A DNA stretch of 64,000 nucleotides, taken from NCBI GenBank assembly GCA_037176885.1, contig JAWWNJ010000253.1, positions 98,745-162,744 on the forward strand, in the 5' to 3' direction. Under the pieces are notes generated by a model. The model saw only the letters and a program-made list of their open reading frames with translations. It was not told where the DNA came from and made no database searches. Shown one piece after another: positions 4,153 to 33,327 of the stretch (its first letter is position 1; each line of letters opens with the position of its first letter). The translations under genes and the position numbers were made by a program. The stretch comes from Favolaschia claudopus (Eukaryota > Basidiomycota > Agaricomycetes > Agaricales > Mycenaceae).

Positions 4153-4204
4153 TCACACAAAATAGCTGAAAATGCAGAGAAAATAGCTAAAATGACCAAC
4201 TTCG

Positions 4205-4520
4205 CGCCGCCGTTGTGAGCTCAAATGAGGGTCAATTCCAGTCAATCAAAGTGAGAACCAGCATTGTTTTTCAAGTACTTTTATCCTATTATGACACTTT
4301 TTTGCTGAGGGTACATTGTGTTTTTCCGGATATGGCAAAAATCGGGAACCATCCATTATTGATGCATTCTCAGTGCATGATATATTGCTGAGTGTTCTAG
4401 GAGGTACAGAAGTATCACATACCCATCTTTACATCTTATTTGAGGTCATTCGGTGAAGCATACAGCAAGATTTTTACCAAAAAGCCACGGCAATTTCTAT
4501 TTGCCACCACTGTACCCTTG
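4205..4520 (-). repeat. Dispersed repeat, copy 1
   Basis: About 315 bp match 10118-10432 in inverted orientation, with blocks such as GTGTCATAATAGGAT and GGAATTGACCCTCATTTGAG shared. Identity is roughly 80-85% by eye. No reading frame is conserved. The two copies bracket the LINE ORF1 fragment and the Copia 5' half. Confidence 0.7.
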
Positions 4521-5180
4521 TGTAGCAGTGGAACGGCGGGGGAGGCGGAAATATTGCCGACAATAGGCGCAGCACTGCCACCCGCCATCTCTCAAGCGCG
4601 CCAGGGCGGTCGATGGCGCCTGACGACACCGCCGCATGCAGCGCCCAGGATTAACCGACGGGTATGTGACAGTTGGTTAAAAATAGATTGGACCTCTCAT
4701 TAGAGGCTTTATTACAAAACGCAGCATCCTTTCATTACAGGTCTTTTTTATAATAAATCGCCGTATACGCCTGAATGTAATTATTAAGAATGGTATGACT
4801 TACCTCGTTCTTTCTGTTTGTGTTGAGCTGCATTACCCGAATTGGTTGTGTCTTCATGAGCTACTTGGCATTAATCACTGCATTCCGAGGGTTTGTAGAC
4901 GAAGACTTCGTCTACTTAGTGAGACGGAGGTAGACGAAGTTACAGTATAATCACCCTTTCTGCGCCGTTGTGCTATTCTTTCTGCGCTCCTTTGGCCTTA
5001 CAATGGTGTCCTAGGGCTCTCAGGTCGACGTCGTGAAGCAGGAAGTGGAAATTTCCCGCGGGCAGGTCCGATTTTGCCGATTAACGTCAACTTCATCAAG
5101 ATCTCGACTATATTTGGAACAAACGTGTAATTTCGTTCAAATTTTGTTGGAGAAGGCCCAAGGGTGTTAGACCTTGATAG
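4521..5180. other. No gene seen
   Basis: Intergenic sequence with no reading frame that I can support. It contains short GTAGACGAAG repeats around 4895-4940 and nothing else I could identify. Confidence 0.5.
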
Positions 5181-5182
5181 TA

Positions 5183-5367
5183 GGGGCGCTCAATTCTTAG
5201 CTCGTCAGCTCGTCTCGTCCGTAAAATATCGATTTTTTGATGAGGGGATCAAAATTTGATGGGAAGTGGAGAGAAATGCGGAGTGGGATCAGCAGCTCAT
5301 CAGCTCATCATGCAATTAAATAATTTCTGGGACGAGACGAGCCGACGAGCTAAGAATTGAGCTCCCC
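5183..5367 (+). mobile_element. 185-bp mariner-type MITE, copy 1
   Basis: TA is present on both sides (5181-5182, 5368-5369). The ends are inverted: GGGGCGCTCAATTCTTAGCT, and the reverse complement of the right end is GGGGAGCTCAATTCTTAGCT. An almost identical copy of exactly the same length sits at 25874-26058 in the opposite orientation. Confidence 0.8.
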
Positions 5368-5511
5368 TAGTTGAGAGCTGTAGTTCAAGAATATGAGAAA
5401 TGAAGAGGTGTCTGTGTGATTAAAGCGCAAAATATGAGCTTCAAGTAGACGGACGTACAACGGAGGTAGATGTAGGCGAAATTTCGTCGACCTGGCGTCG
5501 GCGAAGCTCGG

Positions 5512-7470: not shown

Positions 7471-7560
7471 TTTTTGAAAATTTCAATCCGCTGGTCTATG
7501 CGTGGGAAAATTTTGGTGGTAGCGGATCAAGCCGCTTGTTGTAAGTGACTGACGCCTACC

Positions 7561-7675
7561 TTACATACATTGTACTTACCGGCCTGCAGCTTTGTCGCGC
7601 CCTCGCCACTACCGGCTCGTGCTGACGACTCCGCTGCAGTTCGTTGTTCATTGCGTCTGCGCCATACGATACTCA
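7561..7675 (+). repeat. Copia LTR fragment (3' part of 5' LTR)
   Basis: This 115-bp stretch matches the end of the complete LTR at 28899-29176 nearly base for base (TACATACATTGTACTTACCG...GCGCCATACGATAC). It ends in CA, directly before the primer-binding site. The first ~160 bp of the LTR are missing. Confidence 0.8.
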
Positions 7676-7677
7676 AA

Positions 7678-7689
7678 GGTTATGGGCCC
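7678..7689 (+). promoter_or_regulatory. Copia primer-binding site
   Basis: GGTTATGGGCCC directly follows the LTR end. It resembles the Drosophila copia site, which pairs with the anticodon-stem region of a cleaved initiator-Met tRNA rather than the tRNA 3' end. The function is inferred from position and resemblance. Confidence 0.6.
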
Positions 7690-10117
7690 CGAGCCTAACC
7701 TCAACCTCAATCCTTTCGCGTTTTCGGTTAGACTCTCTTTTCTCGCAGATCACTGAGAAACAACAACCCGGTACTTCGCTCGAGGCGCATCTCACCAGCT
7801 TCCAGGAAGGTATTAACCAACTTGCTGCCTGCAACCTCGCTCTCCCCGAACGGTTCGCTGCCGGTTTCTTTGTCGCCTCCCTATGGCGTGACCCAGATGA
7901 CGCAAATTCCTGGCACACATGGGTCGAGAGCTTCAAGCTCACGGACGCAACCACCCTTACCACCGCCATTCACGACCTCAAGTCGACGGTCCGCATTCGC
8001 GGGACGGCGTCTTAGAGCTCGAGCTCTCTGCAAAGTGCTCTTGTGACGGTGGAGAAGGATCGGCGAAAGAACGGGCGCAATTTCTGCGTAAACCCGTCGT
8101 GCCCTTCTCCCACTAGTCATTCTATCGACAAGTGCCGCGCCGTTGGCGGCGGTGCTTACGTCGCTGGTGGGAAGAAGGAAAAACGTCCACGAGGGGGCAG
8201 GGGGAGTGGGAAAGGGAAGGAGAAGGAGAAAAATAAGGACAAGGCCAATGTGGCCCAGGGGGAGACTCCGGAGTCCGCCGAAAAAGTTCAGACTCACTTT
8301 GTAGCTGACTGCGCCCAATATACCAATGATTTTGATGCTTATTTGGTTGAGAGCCCGTCGCACACCTCCGCCTCTGTTGAGCACGCTTTTAGCGTCGACT
8401 CCGGAGCGCACACTGTTATCCTCGACACTGGAGCAACCACTTCTATCCATTTGTCGAAATCAGCTTTCTCTTCTTATCACCCAGTCTCGGAAACGGTCAC
8501 AGGCTTTGCATCCAATACGACCAAGATTGCGGGTCGTGGTGTGCTCACCTTCGAGCCGCATCTACCTAGGCTCGAATCCAGCCTGTGTATGAGGGCGAAC
8601 CCGTCGATACACAGGCTGGTCGATCTGAGTTTTAATTCCCATGTCAATCGGGTTACCAAAAAAGGTTATTCGCAACTCACCCATTATTTACTCAAATTAA
8701 GAGAGTTTTGCGCGGTGACTGAGCGATTTATACGCCACAGTCATTCTGTGCTCATCCGGGGGTTTATTCTTGAGTTTTGAGGGTGCAGGAGCCAGAATGG
8801 TCTGTGTTGTTCTTATTTGTTCGTGACGTCACTCACTGTCATGAATAACCTTTTTTGGTAACTCGGATTGACAACGGATTTCAAACTCAGATCGACCGGT
8901 CTGTCTATCGACAGGCTTGCCTCCATAGACAGACGGTCACCGGTCTAGCATCTACCCAACGGCACCCGGCGCAAGCTCAACTTTGCTGACGCTGCTCATG
9001 TCCCCAATTCCTCACCAACCCTCGTCTCCATCTCGCGTCTCGACGATGCTGGATGCTATGCCGTCTTCGGCTCGGGACGATGTGTTGTGTTCGAGAAGAA
9101 GGACAATGGCTGACAATGGTAAGTTCATTAACCATTTAGCGCGCTCAGAGTCGCTTGTATGCACCGGCTCCCGTCGCGGTACTCGCTTATACCACATGGA
9201 CCTCGACCCCAGAGTTTCTGCCTTCACGGCTTCTACCTCTTCGGCGTCACCGTCCTCGCAAAAGCTTATGCTATTCCACCGTCTTCTTGGCCACCCAAGC
9301 GAACAGCTGACTCGCTCGCTGGCTCGCAGTGGGAAATATGACCATGTGCTGAAGCTTACCACAACCGAGATTAACGCCCCTCTACCTGTCTGCGACGCTT
9401 GCGCGCGCGGTAAATTAACCCGCGCTGCATTCCCTGCCTCTTATTCACGTGCTGATAAACCACTTCGCCGTGTCTATAGTGATCTGTGGGGCAAGTCGAA
9501 AGTCAAGACACGTTCGGGGAAGTCGTACATGATCTCTTTTCTGGATGATCATACCCGCGGTTCGTGGGTGTACTTCTTGACCAAGAAGAGTGAAGCCTTT
9601 GCCGCCTTCAAGGCATGGCTGGCTGCTGTACAGCGCCAATCCGGTGGTTATCTCCTCATCGAGTTCCACACGGACAACGGGGGTGAGTTCCTTACGATGG
9701 AATTCATTTCGTTTATGGAGGAGCACGGTATCCTCTGGACTCTTACGGCCGCACACACCCCGCAGCAAAATGCGCGAAGCGAGCGTCTATGGCAAACTCT
9801 TATTAGCCGCGCTCGTACTTTTCTCATCGACGCTGGGCTGCCCCTCTCCTTCTGGGGTCTAGCCGTCCAGTATTCAAACTGGATTCGATGGCGCCTGCCT
9901 ACGAAACCTCTAGGTGATGCTACTCCGTGTGATGTTTGGCCTGGTCCAGTGTCGAATTGGGCCGAGTTCCATCCGTTCGGTTGCTTGGCATGGGTCTATG
10001 ACCATACGCCCAACTCGAAAATAGATGCGACCGGGCTACCTGGGATTTAAGATAGAGAGCGTGGGATCCCCGCACCCTTATGTCAGCATCACACTGTGAC
10101 ATTGTCACGCTCGACGT
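7690..10117 (+). pseudogene. Copia retrotransposon, 5' half (Gag, protease, integrase)
   Basis: The remains are in order. Gag is 7690-8015, with most of its N-terminus missing. A Cys/His knuckle-like segment (NFCVNPSCPS...DKC) lies near 8085-8130. An aspartic protease with DTGATTSIHLS lies at about 8424-8455. After an inserted element comes integrase: the HRLLGH...CDACARGK zinc-binding segment, then the catalytic residues as D in VYSDLWG, D in HTDNGGEF and E in NARSERLW (9300-9800). Frames change at several places, including a tandem duplication of GACAATGGCT near 9103-9122. The coding region stops at about 10050, and Copia similarity ends where the dispersed repeat starts at 10118. Reverse transcriptase and RNase H are absent here, but a 3' half of the same family lies at 27600-29176. 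Confidence 0.85.
8567..8947. mobile_element. 381-bp TIR element inserted in the Copia protease region
   Basis: It is flanked by the perfect 9-bp duplication GCATCTACC (8558-8566 and 8948-8956). Removing element and one duplicate restores the Copia frame from EPHLP to NGTRRKLNF. Ends begin TAGGCTCGAATCCAGCC and, reversed, TAGACCGGTGACCGTC. The arms match for about 100 bp and include GGTCGATCTGAGTTT and GTTACCAAAAAAGGTTAT. A 9-bp duplication suits a Mutator-like MITE. Each arm also contains its own short hairpin. Confidence 0.85.
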
Positions 10118-10437
10118 CGAGGGCTTATACAGTGGTGGCAAATAGAAATTGCCATGGCTTTTTGGCCAAAATCTTGCTGTATACTTCACGGAATGACCTG
10201 AAATAAGATGTAGAGATAAATATATGATACCTCTGTACTGCTTAGAACACTCAGCTATATATTATGCCCTGACAATGCATCAATAACAGGACAGTTTCTG
10301 ATTATCGCCATATCTGGAAAGACTCAATGTATCCTCAGCAAAAAAGTGTCATAATAGGATGAAAGTACTTGAAAAACAGTCCTAGTTTCCACTTTGGTTG
10401 AATGGAATTGACCCTCATTTGAGCTCACAACAGCCGC
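10118..10437 (+). repeat. Dispersed repeat, copy 2
   Basis: Inverted partner of 4205-4520. It starts exactly where the Copia sequence ends (TGGTGGCAAATAGAAATTGC) and runs to GAGCTCACAACAGCCGCTCA. It carries no reading frame. Confidence 0.7.
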
Positions 10438-11159
10438 TCAGAGTTGGCTATTTTCACACATGGGAGCCTTGTCGGGCCGACGTGGCTTCTGTGGTGTTTT
10501 CTTGGTTGGTGGTCCTTTCGGAACCGTCGCAGGGGTGGCGGCCTTAGCCGCGGTCGCGTAGGTAGGTTTTGCTGTAGCTGCTTCAACCGGAGCAGGGGGC
10601 GTGGGGAGGGGGGGTTGGCCATTAGCGGGTTTCCGCGTGGCCTGTGTCCGCCATCAATTCTAGACGACACAAGATGCTGGACGTCAGTCATTAAAGACCG
10701 AACGCCATCTGCTACCTTCTTTCGGCAGTGGTTCCAAGCGCAAGGCGGTGGAGACGTGATGAGCTGTATGGGGGCTATCGGGGTGCGCTGGTCGAGTGTG
10801 CTCGTTGGCACATGCCGTGCGGGCGTGGGTGTGGTGGGCATCGAGGGCGACGGAGAGCCTGCGCCCGCAGAGTCATCCGCGATTCGCCCTCTCTTCACAA
10901 TACGGTCGGTGGTGGGTGACTGGGTGACAAGAGCTGAGGTGGAGGGTGTTGGTGTTGTTGGCTCTGCTGAGGCAGAGGTGTCCGGTGGGGAGTCTGACCG
11001 AGGTCGACGCTGGCCCACATTTTTGCTGGTGATGGTTGAGAGAAAACGTGACATCTGGCGTGACTTCCACGTCGCCGCATGCGCGCGCAGACTCGTGCAC
11101 TCATGATATGTAGCTCTATACTTACCAAATTTTGTACATTCTCCTGAGGGTTGACGCAA
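10438..11159 (-). pseudogene. LINE ORF1 N-terminal fragment
   Basis: The minus strand encodes a Ser/Thr/Pro-rich protein start (MSRFLSTITSKNVGQRRPRS), followed by a segment with VADGVRSLMTDVQHLVSS. One frame over comes APVEAATAKPTYATAAKAAT, then KKTPQKPRRPDK. The repeated TYATAAKA-type Ala/Pro/Lys linker before a basic segment is common in ORF1 (Gag-like) proteins of fungal LINEs. The frame shifts near the GGGGGG run at 10600-10615. The fragment ends abruptly at the dispersed repeat, before any zinc knuckle. This is a different copy from the one at 5512-7470. Confidence 0.5.
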
Positions 11160-11322
11160 CGTTGAGGGTTTACATAGGCAAAGTTAGGAGCAAAAAGAAT
11201 ACATATAACTCTCCAGTTGAACTCAGTCATTCTGAATTATTCTCAAATGGGTCTAGAGGATGGACGTCGATGGACTTCCACAGGGTTAAAGTCTGTTAAA
11301 GCAAGTATGCGACTTCTATGTA

Positions 11323-11488
11323 CAGTCGCCTCTGCCTTAACCCATACCTCTCATAACCCATAATGGGCCTTAACCCATACATTTTTGGGAGATTTTGGCC
11401 ATCTTTTGGCTGGGATAACCCATAACTCTGCGATACCCCATAGGTTTCCGGCAGAACGGAGGCCCATGGGTTAAGACAGAGTTGACTG
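11323..11488. mobile_element. 166-bp pogo-like MITE
   Basis: TA is present on both sides (11321-11322, 11489-11490). The inverted ends are CAGTCGCCTCTGCCTTAACC and, reversed from the right, CAGTCAACTCTGTCTTAACC. The motif TAACCCATA recurs internally. The CAGTC...CTCTG..TAAC end resembles pogo/Fot1-type termini. Confidence 0.75.
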
Positions 11489-11566
11489 TACTCTTCGCTG
11501 CGACGTCTGGACACTATGTAAGTACGTTGTACATTCGTCAATTCCGACTAGTAAGGTAGATCTCAT

Positions 11567-12726
11567 TCATCAGCAACCTACCCCACGTGATCCAGCGTGA
11601 CAGACCATAATTGGAATCATTACAGCAAAATCACGATCAAACGCGTCTTTATCCAATCGGAGCCATCCACCCTCAATTTTTCTACGTAACTTCACTAATA
11701 TAGACACGATCTTTTGATATACAAAAATTTGACCCGAAATCTGCACGCGCTGAATTATTGAAGCCCGATCAGTGACAGAAGACTGATTCTGCCACGACGC
11801 CCTACCCGCGATGCCAGCTGTGTCTCGCCGCAAGGCTGCCTCTCGTCAGAGCTGGGGCTCTGCTATGGATTCTATCAGGTCTGGGGTCAAGCGTGTGATT
11901 GGCAGTGTGTCACCAAAGAAGAAAAGGAAAAAGATCCAGACGGAAAAAGAGAATGTGCGTCTGTGCTTCTTGTTCTCATGCTGTGAATAATCTTGCAAAG
12001 GACACGCTGCCTCCGTCGACCCCGGGCCCATCGCTGTCTGGCAGCGATGTTTTTCTATCATCTGAACCGGCCGTCTTTACACCCGACTTCTACATGACTG
12101 TTCCCGCGGCGGTTGTTGACTCTCCGTTCGGCAGCTTCCCCACCCACGCTCGTAGTTCCCCATCGAAGTCATCAACAGTTGGCAGAATATGGCAAGAATG
12201 GACCCCTCGTTTAATCAGTCGATTCTCACCGTCTCGTCAATCCATGCCAAATCACGAAATCTTTGACGACAACGCGTCAATTCTGGCTGCGCGATCCCCG
12301 TTCCCGCCGCAAATGCTGACCAATGACTCTGTCTCCGAGCTCAGCTTCCAACTCTATCCGCACTCCGTCGATTCCGCCTCTCTAAAATCAGCCGACTCTG
12401 CATCAATAAAATTCCCAACTCCGCAGCCTCCGTTGCCCACAGATGCAGAGTTGGCTGAACGTGCACGGGCTCGTGAGGCAGCTGCCAAATCTGCTGACTA
12501 ATCGGCGGTAGTTTCTCCGTTGTTTTTGCTTCAATAATTCGCACACTGGGCAGAAAAATCTACCAAGCTGGATTATAATACTTTTACCGATTTAGAACAT
12601 AGTTACGTAGAAGGTATACTCAATATGTTGTCCAAGTCTACGTGAATTGAGCATCAGTCTGGCTTGGACAAGGATAGGTAACATCAGTAACGCGTTACAT
12701 CAATCACGTGGGGTAGGTTGCTGATG
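11567..12726. mobile_element. Gene-bearing unit with perfect 25-bp inverted ends
   Basis: TCATCAGCAACCTACCCCAC plus the next five bases (11567-11591) reappear as an exact reverse complement at 12702-12726. The 1,160-bp unit holds one spliced gene (11811-12501) and no recognisable transposase. I saw no target duplication next to the ends, so boundaries and mobility are inferred. Confidence 0.55.
11811..12501 (+). CDS. Hypothetical basic nuclear-type protein, two exons
   Basis: I do not recognise the family. Exon 1 is 11811-11954 (48 codons), the intron is 11955-12000 (GTGCGT...CAAAG, 46 nt) and exon 2 is 12001-12501, giving 214 residues. The splice is phase 0. Reading on without it stops within 12 codons. 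The N-terminus is basic, with a likely nuclear localisation signal (SPKKKRKKIQTEKEN). The middle is Ser/Pro-rich with KSSTVGRIWQEWTPRLISRF. The C-terminus ends in an Ala/Arg helix (ELAERARAREAAAKSAD). No catalytic motif is visible. The gene lies between perfect 25-bp inverted repeats, so it may be cargo or the remaining gene of a TIR element. Confidence 0.6.
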
Positions 12727-12804
12727 ACCTTTCACTGTTTCAGACTGTGCGCGCAAATCGCGACGTGGAGGTCACGTGGTGCGCTACATCGTTGGGTCAA
12801 CAAG

Positions 12805-14503
12805 CTTTACAGTGGCGGCGCCATCTGATGCCACCCCAAAAAGTTGATGTGACCCCAATCGACTCGGTTTGCAGGCGTGCTTGCGGAGGCAAAGGGATCG
12901 GTATTGTTGACGCGCTCATGGGGGTTGTTTTCAAACAAATGTGCTATCAGCTCCGGCTCCGTGTTCACCTCCCAATCGATTCCATACTCGTTGATATCCT
13001 CAATTTCCTCCTCCTCCGCAGCAAGAAACGAGGATATACCGCGAGGCCCCTCGAGTAACATCCCAAACGTGAATAGATCGCGCGGACTGCGCTCCCGTTG
13101 CCGACGAACTGTTAGCTGATGCGAGTTCCACGCTTTCGCCCATTCCTCGGCATCGCGGTTAATGGATGCCAGGAATAGGCGGTGAAGCAGCCAGATATGG
13201 CCAGGCCGCGTGGGGTTCAGCCCGTGGTTATTTCGAGATCAAGGAAGAAAACTTTCCACTTCTTTCCGAAACCGTGCGTCACGTCGTACCACAGGCGTTC
13301 GATCCGTGTGTTGTGGACACTCCTGAATGACGTATCTCAGCAACGGTGTAGAAATGCAAAATTCAAACCAACCTTCCCCAGATGAACGAACCTCGACCCG
13401 AGCCTCTGACTTCCTCCATGTAAACTGCAACCTCAATGTTCTCGACACCGTGATCGCCTCGCATGCGGCTCGGACAGCCGTGAAGCGCGATGACATCAAG
13501 TAGCAAGCGTAAAACACTCGCACCGCGATTGTTGTTGTGCACGCGATTACCGAGCACAAACCGCGAATACCCGTCGATGATGCAGTGGATGACAATCTTG
13601 TAACGAATAAGGCCTCAGGATCATTGATTCAGCTGATGAATAGAATTTTAACTTGAACAGCGTGCTCACCGTGTTGCCCGTCAAGATGTGCAAGGGACAT
13701 GGGCCCTGGAACACGATATTTCTTGCGGCTGATTTGCCGATCCCCAAAAATTGCCGGGGCCAAGCCGGGGCACCATGCACCCGTACATACGAGGCAGTAA
13801 TTCGGTCGCGCGGGACGTGATAACCCTGGGACTTGAGATGTCCCCGAATCATGCGCCGCCCAAACTGCGGGAAAACCTCCAATGTTGACGCAAGAAGCCG
13901 ATCGAGTTCAGCGTCAGATATCGCCGAGACAGGAGGCGCAGTGGAGGTATGAACAACTTCAACTTCTCCTGCGGCATCCATCCGCGACTGAAATACAGGG
14001 GCGCCAGGTTGAACTAGTCCGGCACGAAGAGCAGCACGTCGAACAGTGCGAGCCGAAACACCAATCTCAGGAGCAATCCCAGTCGGACCACGAAGATCAA
14101 GAGCAGCACTTAGGAATTGGGGATCAATCTCAATCCGTGGTCAACCTCGTCGCCCAGTATGTAGACGATGTGCAACAATTAAAGGAGCAGCATCAGGCGG
14201 GTCCATCGAGTCGTGGCAGGCAAGATCAAGAGCCGTCACCATGTCGGTGAGGGACGTTTGAAGAGTTGCATATTCGTCGGGGGGGAAAATGGCTTGATGC
14301 TAAATGAGACTGTGAGCATTCACAGCGAATTTTGCTACTATGATTCTTACCATCTCCGCCGCCGAAGCCAACGCTAGTGCTCTATCTCGAATAGCATTCA
14401 GGCTAGGCGGGTCTCCAACCATAGTGCGCAAAGCCGAGAGGACCTCATCGTGAAACGTGTGGTAGGTGTCTCTGAGGTTGCGGAGTCGTTGTTCAGCGTC
14501 CAT
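12805..14503 (-). pseudogene. Integrase-core (DDE) protein gene, decayed
   Basis: The start ATG is at 14503. Exon 1 ends at 14351, and an intron 14350-14300 (GTAAGA...TTTAG) joins AAEM to HQAIFPPDEY in frame. Next comes a helix-turn-helix-like segment (SAALDLRGPTGIAPEIGVSA), then ELDRLLASTLEVFPQFGRRM, then a retroviral-type integrase core. Catalytic residues appear as D in HCIIDGYSRF, D in RGDHGVENIEV and E in NTRIERLW. The C-terminal tail runs to 12805. A further intron is 13372-13323 (GTTGGT...TTCAG). Damage includes an in-frame TGA at about 14142 (GRRG-stop-PRIEID, probably CGA to TGA). One-base slips occur near 13670-13610 and near 13220. This protein type is common in agaricomycetes and annotated as integrase core domain protein. 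The 5.5-kb transposon inserted 32 bp upstream of its start. Confidence 0.7.
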
Positions 14504-14534
14504 TCCAGAACCTAAGATGAGAACTGAGACGAGA

Positions 14535-14783
14535 TAGTCTCGTGACCAGCCTCTCACGACATCCCAAACTGGGAACCCTGTCGTGAGAGTCTGGAACTAT
14601 CATCGGCCAGGTAACCGTACCCTTGCTCTATCACTTTTGATCTATTTTTCACACGCTAACAGGCCTCTTTCCGACTCTTCCGTGGCTCTTCGGACTTTTT
14701 CGGAGCCCTTCGGAAACCCTTCCCGCACATCCGGCGGAGGGTTCCCACGCTTTGCCTCACCTCTCGGGCGTGTTTCTCGCATG
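14535..14783 (+). repeat. Left terminal inverted repeat of the 5.5-kb transposon
   Basis: About 249 bp, near-identical to 19825-20073 in reverse. An inner palindrome around 14553-14590 (CTCTCACGACATCCCAAACT ... CTGTCGTGAGAG) is present in both arms. The repeats diverge at GCATGTTTGCG versus GCATCCTCGCG. Confidence 0.9.
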
Positions 14784-14866
14784 TTTGCGACGAAGTTTTA
14801 GCACTTGTCTCTTGCTTTTGTACACCCTCTTTAGACTTTAGCTATCCCAAGTCTCTTAGCCTCCAA

Positions 14867-16948
14867 ATGAGCACCAATTCTCATTCAAACAGGTCACACC
14901 ATGCCCGGTCTTCATCAGCATCAAGTGCTTCTTCTTTTGTATCTACTCCACGCCGCCCAAGTGGTCTTCGGAATGCTTCTACAGATTTGGCATCTCCCGG
15001 AAATCCTCTAGCTGTAACTCCATCCGAGAAACAGTATAGAAATGGCTATGAAATTCAACCTAAAGCTTTATCTTTCAGACCATATTCCTTGAACAGTCCT
15101 GGTACTTCCCCTCGGGCTGCCTTTAATCTGTCACAGAATACTCTGCTGAACAAGACTGAAGCCCTTGATCCCTCTCAGTGGAATGAGCTAGCAGTAGAGG
15201 CAGGGCTTTTACCTGAAGGAGCAGAGCTTCGCTCTTTTCAAGTACAAGTTTGCAATCTGGTTTTGATGGGCAGAGGTGACTGTGTCTTGATATCAGCCAC
15301 TGGATCTGGGAAATCTCTTACTTGGACCTTACCTCTGGTTGCACGCGGTGAAGGAATCTCTCTTGTCATTACCCCTTTCACAAGTCTTGGTTTGGAAGGC
15401 GAGATGTTGTATGTTATTCAATTTCAATCCTTGACAAAATTGTGTTGAATTAAATGAGTATCCAGGAGCAAGACAGGAAACATTTCCTCAAAATTTATAT
15501 ACGCAGAGCAACACAGCGAAGAAGATTATGAAGCTGTGGCCAGAGGCGAAATGACAGTTGTTTATGTCTGCCCAGAAACATTGGAGTCTCCTGCATTTGC
15601 TCGGCTTTTACACTCACAGGCATGGAGAAAAAGATTATCAGCTATATACCTCGATGAAGCACATCTAGTACATCAGGCTCGTGGTTGGCGGCCGTCATAC
15701 TCTCGTATCTACCAGCTTCGGAACATCATTGGAAATGATGTTCCCCTGATTTGTCTTTCTGCCACTTGTCCCGAGGCTTTTCGTGCCTCGCTTGTAACGT
15801 ATGCAGGTCTCCACCCAGACTACACTCTCATCAATCTGGGGAATTTCCGTCCTGAATTGTCAACTATTATCATTCCTATGGAAAACGACATTCAAAGCTT
15901 TCTTGATATTGCATTCATACTTCCACTGGGCTGTAAACTTGCAGATCTTGTGAAAACTATCATTTTCTGTGACGATATTGATCGGCTGACAGAGATGTTT
16001 TGGTGGGCATTTTATCGAGCAGCTTATCTTCAATTGCCTACCCATGTCATTGACATAATTCATTCTGGTCTTTCACCTCGTCATCAAGAGCTTGCTTTAC
16101 AGGACTTTCGAGATGGAAAAACCCTCATACTGCTTGGTACCTCAAAGATCAGTGCTGGAATGAATTTTCCAGGAGTACAACGTATCCTACAATATGGATG
16201 TGAAGGTCTCACTATCCCTGATGTTGGTCAGCGTGGAGGAAGGGGAGGGAGAAAGAAGGGTGAACGTTGTGTTTTGGTGCTCCTTGTTGAACCTAGCATG
16301 CTCAAAGATATAACTGTTGACAACCCCAAAAATCAAGATCCACAAATGATTGAGCTTCTTCAATCAAAGGAATGTGCTGAAAAGATAATTCAGAGACATC
16401 TGGGAAATACGAATAACTGGTATCGGAATGAGTCAATGCCATGCTGCAATAGATGTAACCCAGAATACAAACCTCCCAGACAGTATAAATGGATTGATGT
16501 CAACCCCGCACCCAAATCAGACTATGTTAGTGTGAAGACAACAAAACCTCAAGAGGAAACAATATACAAAAGACTTGTAGAGTGGAGACTTGATTACTGG
16601 AAGAAGTGCTGGAAAGATGACTGGCCAAGTTATGGGCCGAAGTCACTGGTTTCTGATGCTGACTTCCAAGAAATTTCGACTCACACTGGAAAGATTATTA
16701 CATTGGAAGATCTGAGAAATTATACTCATATTCTTCATTGGGCTGCCCTCTCAACTCCCCTTCTCAAACAAATCCACAAGATCTGTGAAGATCTCAATGT
16801 CCTCCCTACTTTACAAGTTGTTGAAACAGCTGAGCTACCTATTGTTTCTGAACCAGTATCTACACGCAAAAGGAAAAGGGCTCCAACAGCAAAACTAGAG
16901 GAAGGAGAGATGCTCCTGATGGATTTATCATGGTCTACAGATATTTGA
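14867..16948 (+). CDS. RecQ-like DEAH helicase
   Basis: Exon 1 is 14867-15408, the intron is 15409-15465 (GTATGT...CCAG, 57 nt) and exon 2 is 15466-16948. The 2,025 spliced nt give 674 residues with no stop. A Ser-rich leader of about 90 residues precedes the helicase core. Motifs in order: ELRSFQVQ (motif 0), ATGSGKS (Walker A, about 144-150), ITPFTSL (Ia), YLDEAH (II, about 243-247), LSATC (III), IIFCDDIDRL (IV), LGTSKISAGMNFPG (V) and QRGGRGGR (VI, about 436-443). A Cys cluster CCNRCNP follows, comparable to the RecQ zinc site, then a Lys/Trp-rich C-terminus. No HRDC domain is evident. It would unwind DNA using ATP. Its place inside the terminal repeats suggests a role in transposition or replication of the element rather than a host function. 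Confidence 0.9.
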
Positions 16949-16971
16949 TTACAAAATGTAACTAAGTAGAA

Positions 16972-19741
16972 CTACTCATACTCGTTCAGTGAATCAATTA
17001 TGATTGCATCCAATTGTTCAATCAAGGAAATTTGTGGCCGAACATTGTCTTGCTTAAGTTCCTTATCAAACTCTTCATCCAAGCTATCCAATCCCAGCTG
17101 CTGTATATCAGATTGGTTGAAATTTTCATAGTAGCCTGGTGGTAGCTCATTATCATGACGTTGGCGAGACCGGAGATCGTGCCGCTGCAAATGCTTTGCA
17201 TGACCACCTTTAGGGCCAGAAAGGCGATGTAAACCAGTCTGAAAGAGATCCACAACCAGATGGCTGGATGCTTTGTCTTTGGAAAAATCAAGAACATCGG
17301 CTTTGCAAAAATGTTCCAGGAGTAAAATGACATCCTCATGCTGCTTGACATCAGTGTGACGTTGGTCTGCATCAAATACACCAAGCTCATCAAACATCTT
17401 CTCAGTCAACTCTTGAATATGTCCAATCGCTGGAGTAATTCTCTCCAACAAGCCTGGTCGGGCATTGCTTCCGTGTGCATGGGATTTGATAGATTTGTTG
17501 AATTGTTCAACCCGAATATCTGTTTCTTTGAAAGTTCTACGTTTTCCTTGATTGTTCATAAACATGCCCGCACGACGTATTTGAGCTGTCTCTGGTGGCC
17601 AGTCATGAATTAAGTTGTGTAAGAGCTCCATTAGCTCATTTGCATAGTTGTAGCTCCCTCCAGCATAAAAGATAGGTGTCCAATATTTCAACATACGCTC
17701 TACTCGATCAGGATGCCCAAACTTGATTGCGTCACGCATTTCCCTCATGGTCATAAGGTCATGCATTAGAAGAATTGCATTTCCGCACTCTGTACTTCCA
17801 AGCAAAGACTTTGTCCCCTCAGCTTCGAGTCGATCCACAGAAGGTATAATGTATCTAGAAGCCACCTGAGAACACAAGACACGATATGAAGCCTCAGTCA
17901 TTTTTGTCTTCCGGAACTGCTCCACGCTAGATATATCCAAGATCACCATTGCAGCTCGCATTACAAGTGCACGCAAAATAACATCAAAAAATCTTAGCCA
18001 AGCATAGAAATCAAGTTTTTTCAAGTTCAAATTGGGACTATTTGGAAGTTTCGATAACAAGGTTGCAAGACTGAGAGCATCAAATGCACCTGCAGTTCCC
18101 CAGGTATTTCTGCCTATATTCTGAACTTGATTCATTGAAACATGCATGAGACCACTCAGAATTGAAATGCTGGCAAGATGGTCAAAGCGATGCTCAGATC
18201 GGTCAAGTGCCCTTTGATCTTGAGCTGCGCGATCTCGAGCAGTTGTGAGTCTATCACCAAGTACAAAATAATTCTTGTTTTCAAAAACCTCATTGGGAAC
18301 TTTGAGAACATCGCGAAAGAAGTGGTCAAGAACAATCATGTTGCCTCGAGTTGAAGTCTGCTCTTGATCGAATGTGGGCAAGAAATATTCTTCAGTCTTC
18401 TTAGCTGGAAGCTCGTGTGTTTCGTGAAATGGACCAAGGAGATTGCGATATTCTGATAAGGTTCCTACTTCCTCAGCCAAAATATGAGAGACATGTATCG
18501 CTGAGTGGTTGAAGAAACAATTTTGATCATCTGCATGGGGCAGTATTTGTTCCAGAGAAATATCAGGCTCGAGGTGATGTCTGGTGCCGTTGGTTTGTTC
18601 AAAGGTGAGAGGGTCAGATAGTCGAGCAGCATCTGTACCATCAGATCCTGGAGGCAAATCAAGAACAACCAGGAGAGCAGATACTTGATCATGTACTGCA
18701 TTTCCATGAGTAGCCGATGTCTCCCAAGCTTTCTCAACCCAGTTGAAGTTATCATAGGGCAAAAGACACATTTTAGACAGATCATTAGCAACCCTGCTCG
18801 CTAATCGGGTAGCATCTTTGGAGATAGTTGGAACCGCCTTTGTCTGATAGTTGTATGATGTGCATATCCCATAATGGTTGAAAGTCTGTACCACACGCTT
18901 GGGAACTTTACCATCCCAGAAGAGTAAGCAATTCATAGCTTGATGCAGGTTTGTTTCTCTGCTTCGCAAATTCAAAAGCATGGATGTAATCATTGTTCGG
19001 CCCTGCATGGTTAACATTAGACAAACATTTGGTTCGTAATAGTAACATTACCATGTCCGGGTTTCGTTGTTGCCTCTCCAAGTCTGAATCTGGGTTCTGT
19101 TTCTGAATCACTGCCTTGAGCAGGGTTTGCAGATTCGGGGTAACACCCTCGTATACTTGGAGGAGGCCACGAACCGAGAAAGACTTCAAGTGTTCAACTG
19201 TGACTGACTGTGATGGAAGCCGTAGTGCAAGTGCCTCTGCATAGAATGGTCCTTTTCGGGCTGTCTCAGTCAAACAAGTGGCCTCTTTGGCACAAATTTC
19301 TCCAGCCTTTGATATAATTCACCCAGTTAAAGTTGGATCATGACAAGTTTTATCTGTGTATATCAAGTCAAGAAGATGGGTGTAGCCATTTTGCCCTAGA
19401 TAAGTCTGGGTGAAATTGGTGATTGTGCTGTCTTTTGAGGTAAATATCTCTTCAAAAAAAATTCGAAGGGAGTATCGGTTCAATTTCCGAATTGCAGATA
19501 GCACTTCCTGAGTTTTCTGTATGTTTGAAAGCTTGGCAGCCCGAGCATTGGCTCCATAATCTCCATCATTTGAATCATCTGAAGGCCAGGCCTCAAGCAT
19601 TGCATTTGAAGAGATGTCCCTGTCCAGCAAGCGAGGGTCAGGAGGACTAGAACGACCACCAATTGTAGAGACTCCATCTTCTTCCCTACTAAAATCATCG
19701 GACCCGAGCTCCTGGTATTTGAAGCGGAGATGAGAAGACAT
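16972..19741 (-). pseudogene. DUF6589-type protein, candidate transposase, one in-frame stop
   Basis: The start ATG is at 19741 (MSSHLRFKYQELGSDDF). Exon 1 is 19741-19052, the intron is 19051-19003 (GTAATG...GCAG, 49 nt) and exon 2 is 19002-16972, about 906 codons. A single in-frame TGA sits at codon 141 (19321-19319). The flanking sequence reads on in the same frame (TLTG-stop-IISKAGEICAKEA). No convincing intron removes it, so I call a nonsense mutation. The body resembles DUF6589 proteins of basidiomycetes: VLGDRLTTARDRAAQ near residue 479, then FDHLASISILSGLMHVSMNQ, and later FNKSIKSHAHGSNARPG. The biochemical activity of this family is not known to me. Its long, conserved body inside long terminal repeats, next to a helicase, fits a transposase or other mobilisation protein. 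Confidence 0.75.
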
Positions 19742-19824
19742 GAAACTAAGAAAAGGACACAAGAAGGTGGTGGGCAAAGAAAGATGTTTATATTTAGTAT
19801 TTACATACATGCACAGTGCGCGAG

Positions 19825-20073
19825 GATGCGAGAAACACGCCCGAGAGGTGAGGCAAAGCGTGGGAACCCTCCGCCGGATGTGCGGGAAGGGTTTCCGAAG
19901 GGCTCCGAAAAAGTCCGAAGAGCCACGGAAGAGTCGGAAAGAGGCCTGTTAGCGTGTGAAAAATAGATCAAAAGTGATAGAGCAAGGGTACGGTTACCTG
20001 GCCGATGATAGTTCCAGACTCTCACGACAGGGTTCCCAGTTTGGGATGTCGTGAGAGGCTGGTCACGAGACTA
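19825..20073 (-). repeat. Right terminal inverted repeat of the 5.5-kb transposon
   Basis: Reverse complement of 14535-14783. It sits about 80 bp upstream of the DUF6589-type start codon and so probably also contains that gene's promoter. Confidence 0.9.
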
Positions 20074-20082
20074 GAGACGAGA

Positions 20083-21380
20083 AAAGCAGAGCCCCTGGTC
20101 TAATGGTGGAAGGAGAAGAAACCAGAGCTCGAGTCGGCGGCAGTTGCAGGACAAAAGATCACAGATCAACTAGGAACGATGGGGAATGTCAAAGGATGCA
20201 AAGGTAAACTTGCAACCGACCAAGAAAGCGAATGCAAGCCGAGGTGGTGAAAAACCAGGAATTAGGAGTTTTCATCGGGAAAGCTGAGGAATCAAAGTGA
20301 ATGCAAACGCCGGTAAAATTCAGGATTCATTGGGAATTCCCTAGGACAAGCCAGGATATGCAAGGAATCAACGGGAGGCTTCAGGATTTACGAGGAACAG
20401 TAAGGAATTGCAATGATTGATGGGAAACGTGTAGAAAAAGCGGGTGGTTTGAGCTTGGAATAGGAGTAAGTGATTTATTCCCTTGCAAACCAGTAAAGTA
20501 CAGTGCTCTATCTACTGAGTATTTATACCTCCCAGGAATATTACTAATACCATGAGTAGCCGAGTAAAATAGAAACGTAAAGAAATATCTAGAATGTTCA
20601 GGTACTCGGGCTGCCCGAGACCTCTTCGGCTTCATATTCCCAACAAAACGTAATGATTGCGCAGGAAACAAGTGCAAACGTTAACTGGTATTTTGTCCGG
20701 TACCGGCCATCAAACGAAGCCTCAATTCTACGCACATGCAATGTTTTAGGAATACCTGAGGAATGGGCAGGAATTAATCCTGAGGATTCCTTGGTTTTCC
20801 TTGCTATTCCTCAGGAATTGTCAGGACGAATGTTAGGGACTTTCGGGATTTCGCGGGAATAGTAAGGAACGGGACGGAAATACACGGAATATCAATGATT
20901 ATCAAGGAAAATGCGTGATTGTAAAATGCAATGTTTTTTGTCCAGTGGCGGCCTTCATACGATCACGCGAATTTCAGGGTGCCACATAGCGAATTTCGGG
21001 TTTCACGTACAATGAGCGTGAAATAAGTTGTTTCACCCGACCTAGCGAAAGGAGAGTTTCACTCAAATTTCCAGCGAAATTATTTTGAGCACTAGATTAA
21101 TACAAGACTACTTTTACATATCATCCAATGCATCCCCCACGGAATTTTCAACCAAGGAAAACTTTGCAGCGATGTCTGGCCGTACTAAACATGCCCATCG
21201 CTTCCCGCTATGATTGGGAACACGCCCCGCAAGACAGTCAATCGAGCTGACTTCAATTACCTCAGTCGGCGGGCCCAAATCCGCTGAGCGGCCGTTGAAG
21301 TACACGGTTCCGGCAAGATTTTTCGAAACGAGTTTAACTTGAGCAACGGCAGCGAGAAGAAGAGTCGACGGGGACGCTGT
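20083..21380. other. Non-coding, rich in AGGAAT-type words
   Basis: No gene that I can support. From about 20160 to 20900 the strand is crowded with variants of AGGAATT, GGAATCA and GGGAAT, plus short palindromes such as ATTCCTTGG...CCTTGCTATTCCTCAGGAAT near 20785-20818. It may be a decayed minisatellite or an old repeat. A minus-strand frame (21338-21114, ending ENSVGDALDDM) looks protein-like but I cannot place it. Confidence 0.4.
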
Positions 21381-21382
21381 GT

Positions 21383-21590
21383 CGTCGTCGCCGTCGCGGC
21401 GGGAGGGGAAGTCTTTCCACAGGACAACTCTGTTCTCGTCATGGACAACGCAAGTGTTCGTCATTTTGATGGGATTCGTGAGATGGTTGAGGGACGGTGC
21501 GTAGCATATATCCTCTTGATTGCCAACCAACTGAATTTGATCTACAGCGGGCGTCGACTCATTTATTTGTCACCACTAGCAGTGAGCCCA
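21383..21590 (+). pseudogene. DDE transposase fragment (Tc1/IS630-like), copy 1
   Basis: The fragment encodes FPQDNSVLVMDNASVRHFDG, containing the second catalytic Asp region of Tc1/IS630 transposases, then IREMVEGR. A 51-nt intron (21497-21547, GTGCGT...CTACAG) follows, then GRRLIYLSPL. The third catalytic residue is lost. The segment after the intron matches the separate C-terminal fragment at 33328-33556 (GCRLIYLSPYSPDFNP), so both come from one family. Confidence 0.7.
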
Positions 21591-21609
21591 TGCTTCGCCA
21601 TGGGATTCC

Positions 21610-22590
21610 GCTCTTCTGCCCTACAAAAACCAGGTGCCAGTGCCGATCGTCGCCGACCTTCGGTCGACTCCTCGCGGCCCCGTGTGCGAGCTCACTCCAT
21701 CTCAAATGGCTTGGTTTCCTACATACATATAGTGAATACAATGCAAAAATCTCATCTTAAGCCGTTTACAATGTTGAAATGCCTGGGGAAATTTGTTGCC
21801 ATCCAAGCATCATCTCCCGTCGTTGTTCCTCAGCATAAACACCTCGCCGAACCTCATCCTCATACCGAAGCATCCTACTTCGGTAACTTTCCCGATATCG
21901 GTCATTGCGGCGAGTATTCGTGGTCGAGGGCTTGATCTAAGGACTGAGTCGGATCTGTGACGAACAAAACAGTAAGCTAGACAATACAGCTCCAATTGGG
22001 TGGACGCGTACCGCATTCAGGACATAACTTTAACCTTTGTTCCCCTTGTTCAACTTTCCGCCGTAGCGTTTGCGCTCGAGACCTATGACAACCTTTATAT
22101 CCCTCGATGTCCAATAGATCCTCAATTTCACCAGCGAGCTCTCGTTGCCGACGTGCTCGTTGAGCCAATGATCGTGGCAAGTTTACAGGCCTTACAATGC
22201 CTGACTGTGCCCCTCAGATCGGTGTGAAGTCCTCAGATCGCAAGTCTCGCGTACCAAACAACCATCGTTCTCTTTTTCCTTTGCTTCTCTCTTCCTTCGT
22301 CTCTTTTGGCCCGCCGAACGCCGTTCAGACTCGGACTAAGGAAAAATTACTTTTGAACGGGTCCGGCACGACATTTTGTTGAATTGCTGACCTGATTCCG
22401 ACTCTTCCTTGAAACAGGATTCGCTCTGATCTCCACAGGTGCACCACTGACTGCACTCAGCTCGCCGAGATTCCCCTCGCGCTCCATTGTTCTGCTAAGC
22501 AAAAAGGGCTCCGGCTGAGTCATAGAGGGCGTCTTGGGCAGCAGTGAGCGAAGACGGCTCGTTGTGGCGGGCATGGTTGAGCATCGAGTG
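21610..22590. other. No gene; contains one dispersed homologous segment
   Basis: On the minus strand, 22180-21990 reads ...QRARRQRELAGEIEDLLDIE...RAQTLRRKVEQGEQRLK. The same peptide pattern recurs on the minus strand at about 52255-52060. It is probably the start of an unidentified repeated gene. The rest shows nothing I can support. Confidence 0.4.
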
Positions 22591-22592
22591 AA

Positions 22593-22802
22593 TAGAGCTT
22601 ATTAGCAGCCGGTGCTTTTCAAAATATACGATGAAAAACTAAGCGAGATCAGTGAAAAACGGAGGCTCCAAACATGCAAAACCTCGAAGACGTCATCGAG
22701 AGATGCGGTCAGGCGCATGGCCGTTCCCCGCTCCAGAGTGGCGATCATGACGAACGTTCTTGTGCGTGAAATTTCGTTTTTCACCGGTTGCTAATAAGCC
22801 AT
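22593..22802. mobile_element. hAT-type MITE, about 210 bp
   Basis: Inverted ends TAGAGCTTATTAGCAGCCGG at the left and, reversed, GGCTTATTAGCAACCGGTG at the right. The inner GAAAAACTAAGCGAG block also occurs in the 24925-25091 element, so the two may be related. The exact right end and target duplication are unclear. Confidence 0.55.
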
Positions 22803-22855
22803 CCTGCAGAGAGACGGGTGGAGCACGCGGGCACGAACTCAACATCTCGACAAAA

Positions 22856-23297
22856 TAGAGACTTTGCGCAGAGCCACCGGTAGCCACCCAGTGGCTCTCA
22901 CGGCATGCGCTGTGGAGCGGCTACGGCATATGGTGGCTCGTTTGGTGGCTCGTCGCCCGCGTTGCAGGTGGGGCTCCAAGTATCTACATGGTACCTCTGT
23001 GACTATACCTCAATGTAGTGAGGTGTCGTGGTTAGGTTACCAGTTTCCCGCTTTATTTGGTGCGTTTTTGGCCGGTTCTTGCAAAACCGACGGTTGGCGT
23101 GGAACCTTGGTGTGCTTCCTGGGGGTTTGGGAGCCTAGCGCTTCGAGGTCATCCAGGGGGATGAAAAAATGCCGAAGAAAATGAATTTCAAGTTGTTCTT
23201 CCAGCCACCGAATGAGCCACCATAGCGCGTAGCCGCTCCACAGCGCATGCCGTGAGAGCCACCGGGTGGCTCCCGGTGGCTCTGCGCAAAGTCTCTA
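22856..23297 (+). mobile_element. 442-bp hAT-type MITE, family A copy 1
   Basis: Inverted ends of about 95 bp, starting TAGAGACTTTGCGCAGAGCC on both sides. They contain GGTGGCTCTCACGGCATGCG and CTGTGGAGCGGCTACG. A second copy of 426 bp lies at 41450-41875 in the opposite orientation. The TAGAG terminus fits hAT (YARNG). No matching 8-bp duplication is left. Confidence 0.8.
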
Positions 23298-23706
23298 ATG
23301 ACGCACCAGTGGGGCGGTTCACGGCATTTTGTTAGCGGTCAGCCAATACGAATGTCCCTTTCGTTTGTCTTGTCTTGTCCCACCCAGACACGAAGTCCTT
23401 GGTTCTTATATAGATTTCATGCACGTAATGACCTGGTTATGATTACCGGCCGTCTAAGTCGTCCGCGCCGTTGGATTCCACCATTTTCCCGTTGTCACAG
23501 GGGTAATTGAATTGAAAATGAAAACTCGAGAGGAATGTGGACGTTATGAACTCACATTGCAAAACTATCGCATTCCATATACAGTTGCGGCCACGGAACT
23601 TGCATTACCATGCATTTGGGGCAGGAAACACTACAATCTCGGGTGCTCAGGGAAGCCAGGGAGAAGCATCGGGAAATTACATTATCTTTTTCTAAAAATT
23701 TCTTTT

Positions 23707-23793
23707 TCTGGGGGTTCTAAGCCCTCTAAGCCCTTAGGCAGCCTAAGCCCTATAAGCCTTATGCTAAGACCTAAGGGCTAAGGGCTTAGCGTG
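23707..23793. repeat. Short foldback repeat
   Basis: CTAAGCCCTCTAAGCCCTTA and its inverse CCTAAGGGCTAAGGGCTTAG form a long imperfect hairpin, with further TAAGCCCTATAAGCC units in the loop. Origin unknown. Confidence 0.5.
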
Positions 23794-23799
23794 CCGGGG

Positions 23800-24207
23800 G
23801 GTCGTAAACTCAAGGGGTGCGTGATCTCTTGGCGGGCGTTCCCACGACCACCCACCCCCCCAAAAGAGGAAATGGTTTCGTGAAGCTGACGTGAGCGCAA
23901 ACAGCGGCCATCAATCCCATCACTTTTTCACTTCCCTCGCTTACACGACACCGCCCAGCGGTCGTCGCGCCTCGCCACGTCGAGGGCTCTTTGCAGTCGC
24001 GTTTTCTACGCGTCAAAACACTGCAATCAGTATGGAAACTCAAACCTGTACATGCTGTCCCACTCCAGACATCTCATATGATGACGGCGGCGTAGCTTCG
24101 GCTTTGAGGCGGCCGTCACTGGCGGCAACCAAAGCCGTCGCGCCGCCACAGGAGAGATCCAAGCGTTGAATACTAGTGTGTTCTGCGTGCGATAGGATAG
24201 TACAGAT
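23800..24207. other. Possible promoter and start of a lost gene
   Basis: A short plus frame from 24032 reads METQTCTCCPTPDISYDDGG and on to 24166 (45 codons), preceded by a pyrimidine-rich stretch. It runs into the MITE at 24208. It may be the first exon of a gene destroyed by that insertion. The support is weak. Confidence 0.2.
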
Positions 24208-24424
24208 AATAGAGGGTTTGCGAAGAGCCATTGGAGCCATTGAATGGCTACCGATTTCCACATTAGGAAACTTTGATTGGCCAAACTTTCATGTAGAAGT
24301 CAAGAGGAGCTGTCTGGAATGAAGTTCGGGTACTCGGACTGGGGGTGTCTTTTGTCAATACGCCGGAATCTGGACACTTGTTTAGCCATTAGCCATTCAA
24401 TGGTTGCTTCGCAAACAGGCTAAT
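24208..24424 (+). mobile_element. 217-bp hAT-type MITE
   Basis: Left end TAGAGGGTTTGCGAAGAGCC, followed by ATTGGAGCCATTGAATGGCT. The reversed right end is TAGCCTGTTTGCGAAGCAAC, followed by CATTGAATGGCTA. A partial copy lies at 4152-4057 upstream of the F-box gene. Confidence 0.65.
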
Positions 24425-24924
24425 GTTCAAACATCTGGATGGCTAAGCGAGGTTTTCGACATCGACCCTCATACGTCTGACGATATAGTCTTCACTGAGG
24501 ACATCAAAAGGGTGAGTTTCAAATATCTTCGGACAATGTCATGGTCTAACATATTTTATTCTGTACTTATCCGTGCGAAGCACGGGTTTCGACTAAGTAG
24601 TTATAGTATAAACGAAGCTGGAACCAGTCGTGACGTGGATTTGGCTGGGAGTAAACAAAGACAAGTAGCACGCTGCACGGGCACATGAAAATCATGTATC
24701 TTGGTACCCCGATTTTCATGTACCCACACTCTGAAAATCAGTCGTCGTCCCCGGATTTTCATGTACCTAGCGCTCAAATAAAATCATATTCTTTTTTGAC
24801 GTTTTCATGTGCCATTTTAATGTGCTCAGTACATGAAAATCATTTAAAAGTTCAGAGCACCGTCTCAAATCATGGGCATCGTACATTAAAATCGAGGGAG
24901 GGCGAATTAAATTTATAGGAAAAA
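24425..24924. repeat. AT-rich region with repeated GATTTTCATGTAC words
   Basis: Between about 24680 and 24880 the words GATTTTCATGTACC, GTTTTCATGTGCC and their inverse ATGAAAATCAT occur at least six times in both orientations. Similar words recur near 25795-25830 and 26065-26140. This could be a degenerate satellite or subterminal motifs of an unseen element. Confidence 0.4.
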
Positions 24925-25091
24925 TAGAGCATTTTGGCAAACGGTGAAAATCAAATTTCAGTTCGAAAAACTAAGCGAGTTTGGTGAAAAACTACAGTGG
25001 GCTGCGCACTGTTTTGCGGCTCCACAACCAAAATTTGGTTAGCGGGAACTGAAGAAAAAAATCATTTTTCACCGTTTGCCAAAGTGCTCTA
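24925..25091. mobile_element. 167-bp hAT-type MITE
   Basis: Inverted ends TAGAGCATTTTGGCAAACGG and, reversed, TAGAGCACTTTGGCAAACGG, each followed by TGAAAA. The terminus fits YARNG. No clear 8-bp duplication. Confidence 0.75.
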
Positions 25092-25099
25092 ATATATGA

Positions 25100-25870
25100 T
25101 ATTTTGACTATATAGGTACAAATGGTACAGTACGGCAGCTACGATTCAGATTGCACTCGACACCCTTGCTCGGCGCTCAACGGCGACACTTTTCGCCTAT
25201 CAGACCGGAGAGAGAGAGAGCTAACGTCCTGCGACTAGATGGTGTCAATGAAGATATAGACATAAATCAATACACATCGACACAGCAATGACGCCCGCTC
25301 CTGGCCATCCGTCTCGTCATACTGTCCTATCATCGTGTTGATTTTCGTTGCTGGAATCGTTGTAGCTGTCGCGACAAGTGCCTGAGATCACGACAAGCAG
25401 TTAGTGCAAGTTTGAAGACCATCCACTTTGTTGACGTACCACGGTTCCCAAATACAGCCCACCCCTCGCATGCAGACTACCCCGTATCCTCCGCATGTCT
25501 AACCAACTTGTGCGGGCGTTGTTGCTGGCGGGATCTGCTACGTCAGTGTTGACTCTAGCAAGAGAGGGAGGGATAGAGCGGGGGCGGTGACAGCGACGGC
25601 GACGGCGACGGCGACAACGACAGCGATGGCGATGCCGACGACGAGTTGGCGAGATGGTGGTGGTGGTGGTAGGGCGACAAGAGAGTGTGAGAGCGTCCGC
25701 AGCATATGTATGTGCTGCGGATGTGGAGCTCTGACGTCACTGTCCGGCAACTCGGCATTTGGACTTGGACGTGCTTTTTTTTGCCCTGGACGGCGCTGTG
25801 ATTTTCATGTCCGAGTCCATGATTTTTCGAGGGGGTGCGCATCCACTGAATTTCGTTGAATGGGGCCTCA
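25100..25870. other. Non-coding with (GCGACG)n tract
   Basis: A hexamer-like GCGACG/GCGATG tract at about 25585-25650 gives artificial Thr/Ala or Ser/Pro frames, and a short (AG)n run lies near 25208. I see no gene. Confidence 0.5.
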
Positions 25871-25873
25871 TTA

Positions 25874-26058
25874 GGGGAGCTCAATTCTTAGCTCGTCGGC
25901 TCGTCTCGTCCCAGAAATTATTTAATTGCATGATGAGCTGATGAGCTGCTGATCCCACTCCGCATTTCTCTCCACTTCCCATCAAATTTTGATCCCCTCA
26001 TCAAAAAATCGATATTTTACGGACGAGACGAGCTGACGAGCTAAGAATTGAGCGCCCC
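25874..26058 (-). mobile_element. 185-bp mariner-type MITE, copy 2
   Basis: Flanked by TA (25872-25873, 26059-26060). Reverse complement of the 5183-5367 copy with only scattered differences and identical length. Confidence 0.8.
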
Positions 26059-33286: not shown

Positions 33287-33327
33287 TCTGTCTCTTCTCT
33301 GTTTCCTGAAGCTTACTATTTGTACAG

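Follow-up and report, generated by a model that had tools for sequence, protein, structure and literature searches.

Background

The AcademH transposons, reportedly described by Kojima in 2020 in Mob DNA 11:15, appear to be the closest counterparts of a 5,539-bp element that we analysed in Favolaschia claudopus, within a stretch of 64,000 nucleotides (contig JAWWNJ010000253.1 of assembly GCA_037176885.1, positions 98,745 to 162,744 of the forward strand) hereafter called the window. The element is bounded by terminal inverted repeats (TIRs) and holds two genes, one for a RecQ-like helicase and one for a protein with the DUF6589 domain (PF20231). Part of this layout is shared by MuDR, in which two convergent genes are combined with TIRs of ~ 200 bp and duplications of 9 bp, but whose second gene is not a helicase; hAT elements form 8-bp duplications, and Helitrons are without TIRs and without target duplication. 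According to excerpts of later papers, AcademH duplications are of 9 or 10 bp and those of AcademX of 3 or 4 bp, in relation to the helicase or nuclease encoded (PMC10045372), the AcademH hosts belong to Basidiomycota, Ascomycota and Mucoromycota (PMC10799480), and putative non-autonomous Mutator-like elements (MULEs) and Academ elements are widespread in Marasmius oreades (PMC8290104).

In light of the results presented below, we consider it very likely that the F. claudopus element is a TIR-type DNA transposon with a DUF6589 protein as DDE transposase and a RecQ-like helicase as accessory, AcademH being the best fitting group.

Anatomy of the element and of its ends

The transposon occupies window positions 14535-20073 and the 9-bp target duplication GAGACGAGA is found, exact, on both sides (14526-14534 and 20074-20082), as the initial annotation of this DNA had claimed. 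Its termini read TAGTCTCGTG...CACGAGACTA. The near-identical inverted ends, first given as ~ 249 bp, are confirmed as well: the arms (14535-14789 and 19819-20073) are 99% complementary over 255 nt, and their outer 248 nt, which we take as the left TIR (14535-14782, plus strand) and the right TIR (19826-20073, minus strand), show no mismatch with each other. Duplications and arms are not due to chance, and the ends are those of one element with one duplication instead of two independent miniature inverted-repeat transposable elements.

Two convergent genes with one intron each lie between the TIRs. The helicase gene (14867-16948, plus strand) consists of exon 1 (14867-15408), with motif I ATGSGKS, a GT...AG intron of 57 nt (15409-15465) and exon 2 (15466-16948), with the DEAH box and Helicase_C, the whole protein being of 674 aa. 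On the minus strand, exon 1 of the DUF6589 gene (19052-19741) is followed by a GT...AG intron of 49 nt (19003-19051) and by exon 2 (16972-19002), which encodes the predicted RNase H-like catalytic domain; copies with an open frame give a product of 906 aa, and the database protein P0002, also with DUF6589, is likewise of 906 aa. The convergent spliced arrangement proposed at first is therefore retained, with a small correction since 23 bp, and not ~ 24 bp, separate the stops (16948 / 16972). Both start codons are situated 78 bp inside the inverted arms, and for this reason the TIRs probably carry both promoters.

Furthermore, each TIR contains at its positions 12-60 a dyad with 16-bp arms (14546-14594 in the left TIR, 20014-20062 in the right one, the right end being identical to the left). 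The arms are paired at 15 of 16 positions, compared to 12 of 16 for the best of 200 block shuffles. In two sister families, found on contigs C24 and C306, the dyad is paired at 16 of 16 positions: the position unpaired in the window copy is paired there, and two pairs are changed on both arms with pairing kept. When ends were compared, the palindrome was not shared by those of a more distant family on C26 and C22. In the short copies C3b, C3c and C4, only the outer ~ 53-63 nt of the left end are kept, yet duplications of 9-10 bp are present; this hints, but does not prove, that an end of this length is enough on one side.

As a separate observation, the TIRs of the window copy and of two copies on C7 (L010 and L011) show no difference over the 248 nt of either arm, while the interiors differ at 248 of 5,040 positions (P ~ 4e-6 for such TIR identity at the interior rate). 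This identity likely originates from gene conversion, or from some other process that homogenises the copies.

Duplications and uninterrupted target sites

A search of the genome with the TIR gave at least 42 matches, from copies of 197 bp and ~ 890 bp up to the full element. Both ends could be read in 20 copies or relatives, and 19 of them carry an exact duplication, 18 of 9 bp and one, on C4, of 10 bp. Given that C139, C7b, C120 and C27b each share their site with another copy, this represents 15 independent target sites, 14 with 9 bp and one with 10 bp. For the C27 pair, the 14 nt on both sides agree and the 100-nt left flanks, compared without gaps, agree at 55 positions only. The lone exception among the 20 is C285, with a 3-bp duplication; its right flank is the same as that of C306 and its left flank is not. 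All 20 display TAG...CTA termini, most of them having been selected by searching for this type of end, which is not the case of the C26 and C22 ends. The duplication counts do not include C54, C331, C2 and C8, whose right end is short or modified, C84, whose piece shows no canonical end, and C27:1565489, whose piece contains a single end.

Uninterrupted counterparts of occupied sites were found as well. When the two flanks of the C7 site were joined, five places in the genome matched them from end to end at 87-90% identity, and the one that was read is uninterrupted, with a single target copy in which 8 of 9 bases are the same. The C14 site lies in a repeat: its counterpart L075 is uninterrupted, in L072 and L074 the target is uninterrupted but immediately preceded by a short insertion, and L073 has undergone rearrangement there. 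The match is weaker for the C4 site, whose two counterparts are only 77% identical. At the C30, C3 and C26 insertions neither empty alleles nor excision footprints were found, the searches returning occupied flanks only and, for C30 and C3, also repeats covering one flank.

Helicase and DUF6589 genes as a recurrent pair

In the assembly, PF20231 gave at least 117 matches, merged into at least 102 loci, and the helicase at least 87 matches, merged into at least 61 loci. A DUF6589 locus is present within 6 kb at 29 of the 61 helicase loci, compared to 0.31 expected. Of these 29 pairs, whose members are up to 5.6 kb apart, 26 are convergent and 3 divergent; a thirtieth one (C7, 5,768 bp) was dropped as it joins neighbouring elements. 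The count is in agreement with the adjacency of RecQ-like and DUF6589 genes that the initial annotation had put forward. For 73 of the 102 DUF6589 loci no helicase was found within 6 kb. When 30 DUF6589 loci were excised with 1.5-kb flanks and searched with 109 helicase queries, a match was seen at 7 of them, and longer pieces around three distant DUF6589 loci revealed a helicase in all three cases.

The C24 and C306 sister families have the convergent gene pair, TIRs of ~ 315 bp whose first 14 bases are those of the window element, and the duplications TGTCGACTC and ACGTGTGCC. In the family on C26 and C22 the DUF6589 protein is only 23-26% identical where aligned, the element measures ~ 7.6 kb and the helicase is divergent in orientation; its ends read TAGACTCG...CGAGCCTA and its 9-bp duplications are ACCTTGGAT and CAATAGTAG. 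Since the gene pair is kept in both groups of families along with the end motif and the length of the duplication, these three features travel together over large divergence.

Outside this genome, the DUF6589 protein search was considered through the best 120 of 142 matches and the helicase search through 109 matches. The named hosts of close matches are mushroom-forming fungi, mostly Mycena. As many as 32 of the 109 helicase matches (32 of the 87 close ones) were assigned to the same contig as a listed DUF6589 match, shared contigs being judged by exact agreement in base count, a criterion that leaves 0 or 1 assignments when the counts are shifted by 1-3 bases; seven of the 32 linked pairs are on contigs shorter than 8 kb. 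Moreover, the pairwise divergences of the helicase and DUF6589 proteins are correlated for 29 of the 32 pairs (r = 0.927, a value reached in 0 of 2000 permutations), the other three being left out because their contig is ambiguous with another row or because they were not entered; host phylogeny is expected to contribute to this value. A wider profile search showed no animal name among the named records in the best 120 of 154 DUF6589 matches. The pair is hence seen in other genomes, as helicase and DUF6589 genes on shared contigs, and its recurrence here and in other fungi, together with the inverted ends and 9-bp duplications of sister and distant families, supports the earlier proposal that it forms the mobilisation machinery.

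Two mutually identical copies on C7, with both frames open, allowed a comparison of the two genes. Between the window and C7 copies the synonymous divergence (dS) is 0.16 for helicase and DUF6589 alike, and the ratio of nonsynonymous to synonymous divergence (dN/dS) is 0.11 for the helicase and 0.13 for DUF6589. Purifying selection on both genes indicates that both proteins have been maintained.

A predicted DDE transposase and its helicase partner

Pfam domains were scored on the open frames, exon by exon. The assignment of the second gene to DUF6589 stands (PF20231, E = 5.1e-89), and so does that of a RecQ-like helicase with DEAH box to the first. Indeed, Helicase_C is found at E = 1.9e-12, a DEAD domain at E = 1e-5 with 25.7 bits, just below the cut-off of 26, and the top-scoring PDB chains are those of RecQ, WRN and RECQ5. 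The RecQ-family model TIGR00614 matches at E = 8.3e-28 but with 97 bits for a curated cut-off of 219.8, and we therefore call the helicase RecQ-like and not a canonical RecQ.

The predicted structure of the DUF6589 protein is RNase H-like, its nearest neighbours being Hermes, the P element, Transib and RAG1, and it displays conserved acidic residues (D314, D480 and E686/E689) as candidate catalytic positions. As in the structures of Hermes (hAT), the P element, HzTransib and RAG1, the predicted core would contain a long helical stretch inserted ahead of the last acidic helix, while identity to these four is only 7-13% over the aligned parts. An alignment of DUF6589 against PDB sequences returned nothing at E ≤ 1. 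The transposase role first suggested for DUF6589 is thus supported by the predicted fold and its conserved acidic residues, and on all these results we hold it as almost certain that this protein acts as a DDE transposase partnered by the helicase. This role is possibly new, the transposon type itself being most likely known already: the literature search gave no paper linking DUF6589 to a transposase, the four papers with the string PF20231 seeming unrelated from the listing alone.

In the mechanism that we propose, DUF6589 would bind the outer ends through TAGTCTCG and the subterminal palindrome, cut them, and then join them to target DNA whose strands are cut 9 bp apart; the 9-bp duplications would follow from this stagger. 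The RecQ-like helicase, a co-inherited accessory, would probably unwind the DNA, either at the transposon ends or in the product of strand transfer, and in this way allow repair or replication to be completed.

Classification and alternative explanations

The element is probably a member of AcademH. Similarly to AcademH, it encodes a helicase (RecQ family, E = 8.3e-28), forms duplications of 9-10 bp (9 bp at 14 of 15 sites, 10 bp at the remaining one) and has a DDD/E transposase, here by prediction from the fold and from D314, D480 and E686/E689. The two were compared through the descriptions given in excerpts of citing papers, and no difference was established on this basis. The undescribed transposon type announced in the initial annotation is not supported, given that AcademH, with its helicase and its 9-10 bp duplications, was published in 2020 and fits every feature tested. 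The Helitron-like mechanism considered with it is likewise unsupported, as 248-bp TIRs and a 9-bp target duplication are present. Zisupton/KDZ elements were also ruled out, their duplications being of 8 bp according to an excerpt (PMC12730594) compared to 9-10 bp here.

Among other explanations, an unlikely but still appreciable one is that DUF6589 elements form a superfamily of their own, with a transposase not related in sequence to those of Academ, and that they acquired the helicase and the 9-bp duplications independently. It is in keeping with the absence, in the literature search, of a paper naming DUF6589. On the other hand, helicase, DDE fold, duplications of 9-10 bp and fungal host all coincide with what the excerpted descriptions give for AcademH. 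In a fuller form, held to be equally unlikely, PF20231, with at least 102 loci in the assembly, would be a DDE superfamily distinct from Academ, with the RecQ-like helicase as its regular partner acting on the end palindrome, kept by matched changes on the arms, and with TIRs homogenised between copies while the interior diverges. If this were true, a family of unknown function would define its own DDE transposase superfamily.

It is rather improbable that the helicase is a captured host gene without part in transposition. The 73 DUF6589 loci with no helicase found nearby would favour such a capture, but the equal dS and like purifying selection in both genes, the pairing in distant families and the correlated divergence argue for a helicase that belongs to the transposon. 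A slightly smaller chance is given to the element being a MULE, which it resembles by its long TIRs, its two convergent genes and its 9-bp duplications, as known for MuDR/Mutator. However, none of 60 DUF6589 proteins matches the MULE/Mutator Pfam models at E ≤ 1, within the sensitivity of the HMMER filters, the Hermes and P element structures score higher for DUF6589, and a helicase does not stand as second gene in MuDR. Finally, KolobokH, the other fungal DNA transposon lineage with a RecQ helicase, which according to an excerpt also has a DDD/E transposase and is known only from fungi, is practically eliminated and is refuted by duplication length and sequence, since Kolobok is there said to make TTAA-specific 4-bp duplications with 5'-RR/YY-3' termini (PMC9587614) whereas the duplications here are of 9-10 bp with TTAA at none of 15 sites, the termini are TAG...CTA and the helicase lies on the opposite strand and not downstream of the transposase domain.

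State of the window copy and surrounding sequence

The DUF6589 frame of the window copy is broken by a premature stop at codon 141 (19319-19321, minus strand), which the initial annotation did not mention; the C7 copies have an open frame instead. As a result, this copy is probably non-autonomous, with no full transposase of its own, and apparently intact copies are present elsewhere in the genome, on C7. The copy on C139 shares with the window copy both the duplication and the 100 nt of left flank, and is hence most simply the other allele; it also has the codon-141 stop, and in addition its helicase gene is shortened by a 10-bp deletion and its DUF6589 gene carries a 5-bp insertion.

The copies L014 (C2) and L015 (C8) have large internal deletions, ~ 3.6 and 3.0 kb by alignment, and their far ends are short by the outer 36 or 76 nt; at the C2 deletion junction the aligned parts overlap by 7 nt, resembling a microhomology join. 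Along contig C84 are spread several degraded helicase fragments that resemble one another and are 87-91% identical to the window over ~ 90 residues; a search within 6 kb of them gave no DUF6589 match.

Elsewhere in the window, an inverted repeat pair of ~ 325 nt (85-88% complementary) bounds positions 4189-10454, inside which the frame 8929-10050 displays integrase core and gag-pre-integrase domains; this is probably a Copia-type remnant. A 710-codon open frame at 31217-33349 carries the reverse transcriptase domain RVT_1 (E 2.4e-14). The inverted repeat pairs 5178-5369/25872-26063 (192 nt, 99%) and 22979-23089/41645-41755 (111 nt, 99%) are probably dispersed repeats. No RNA family reached the gathering threshold in window 10000-26000, and a single weak array of tandem repeats was seen in 10000-24000.

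Implications

In databases these proteins are still entered as 'hypothetical' or 'DUF6589 domain-containing', and transposon genes are for this reason probably counted as host genes. With the present findings a large family of unknown function becomes a DDE transposase that can be tested, its candidate catalytic residues being named, and they offer a simple reason for the many DUF6589 and RecQ-like genes lying side by side in mushroom genomes. Moreover, the copies with both frames open are material for asking why a transposon carries its own helicase.
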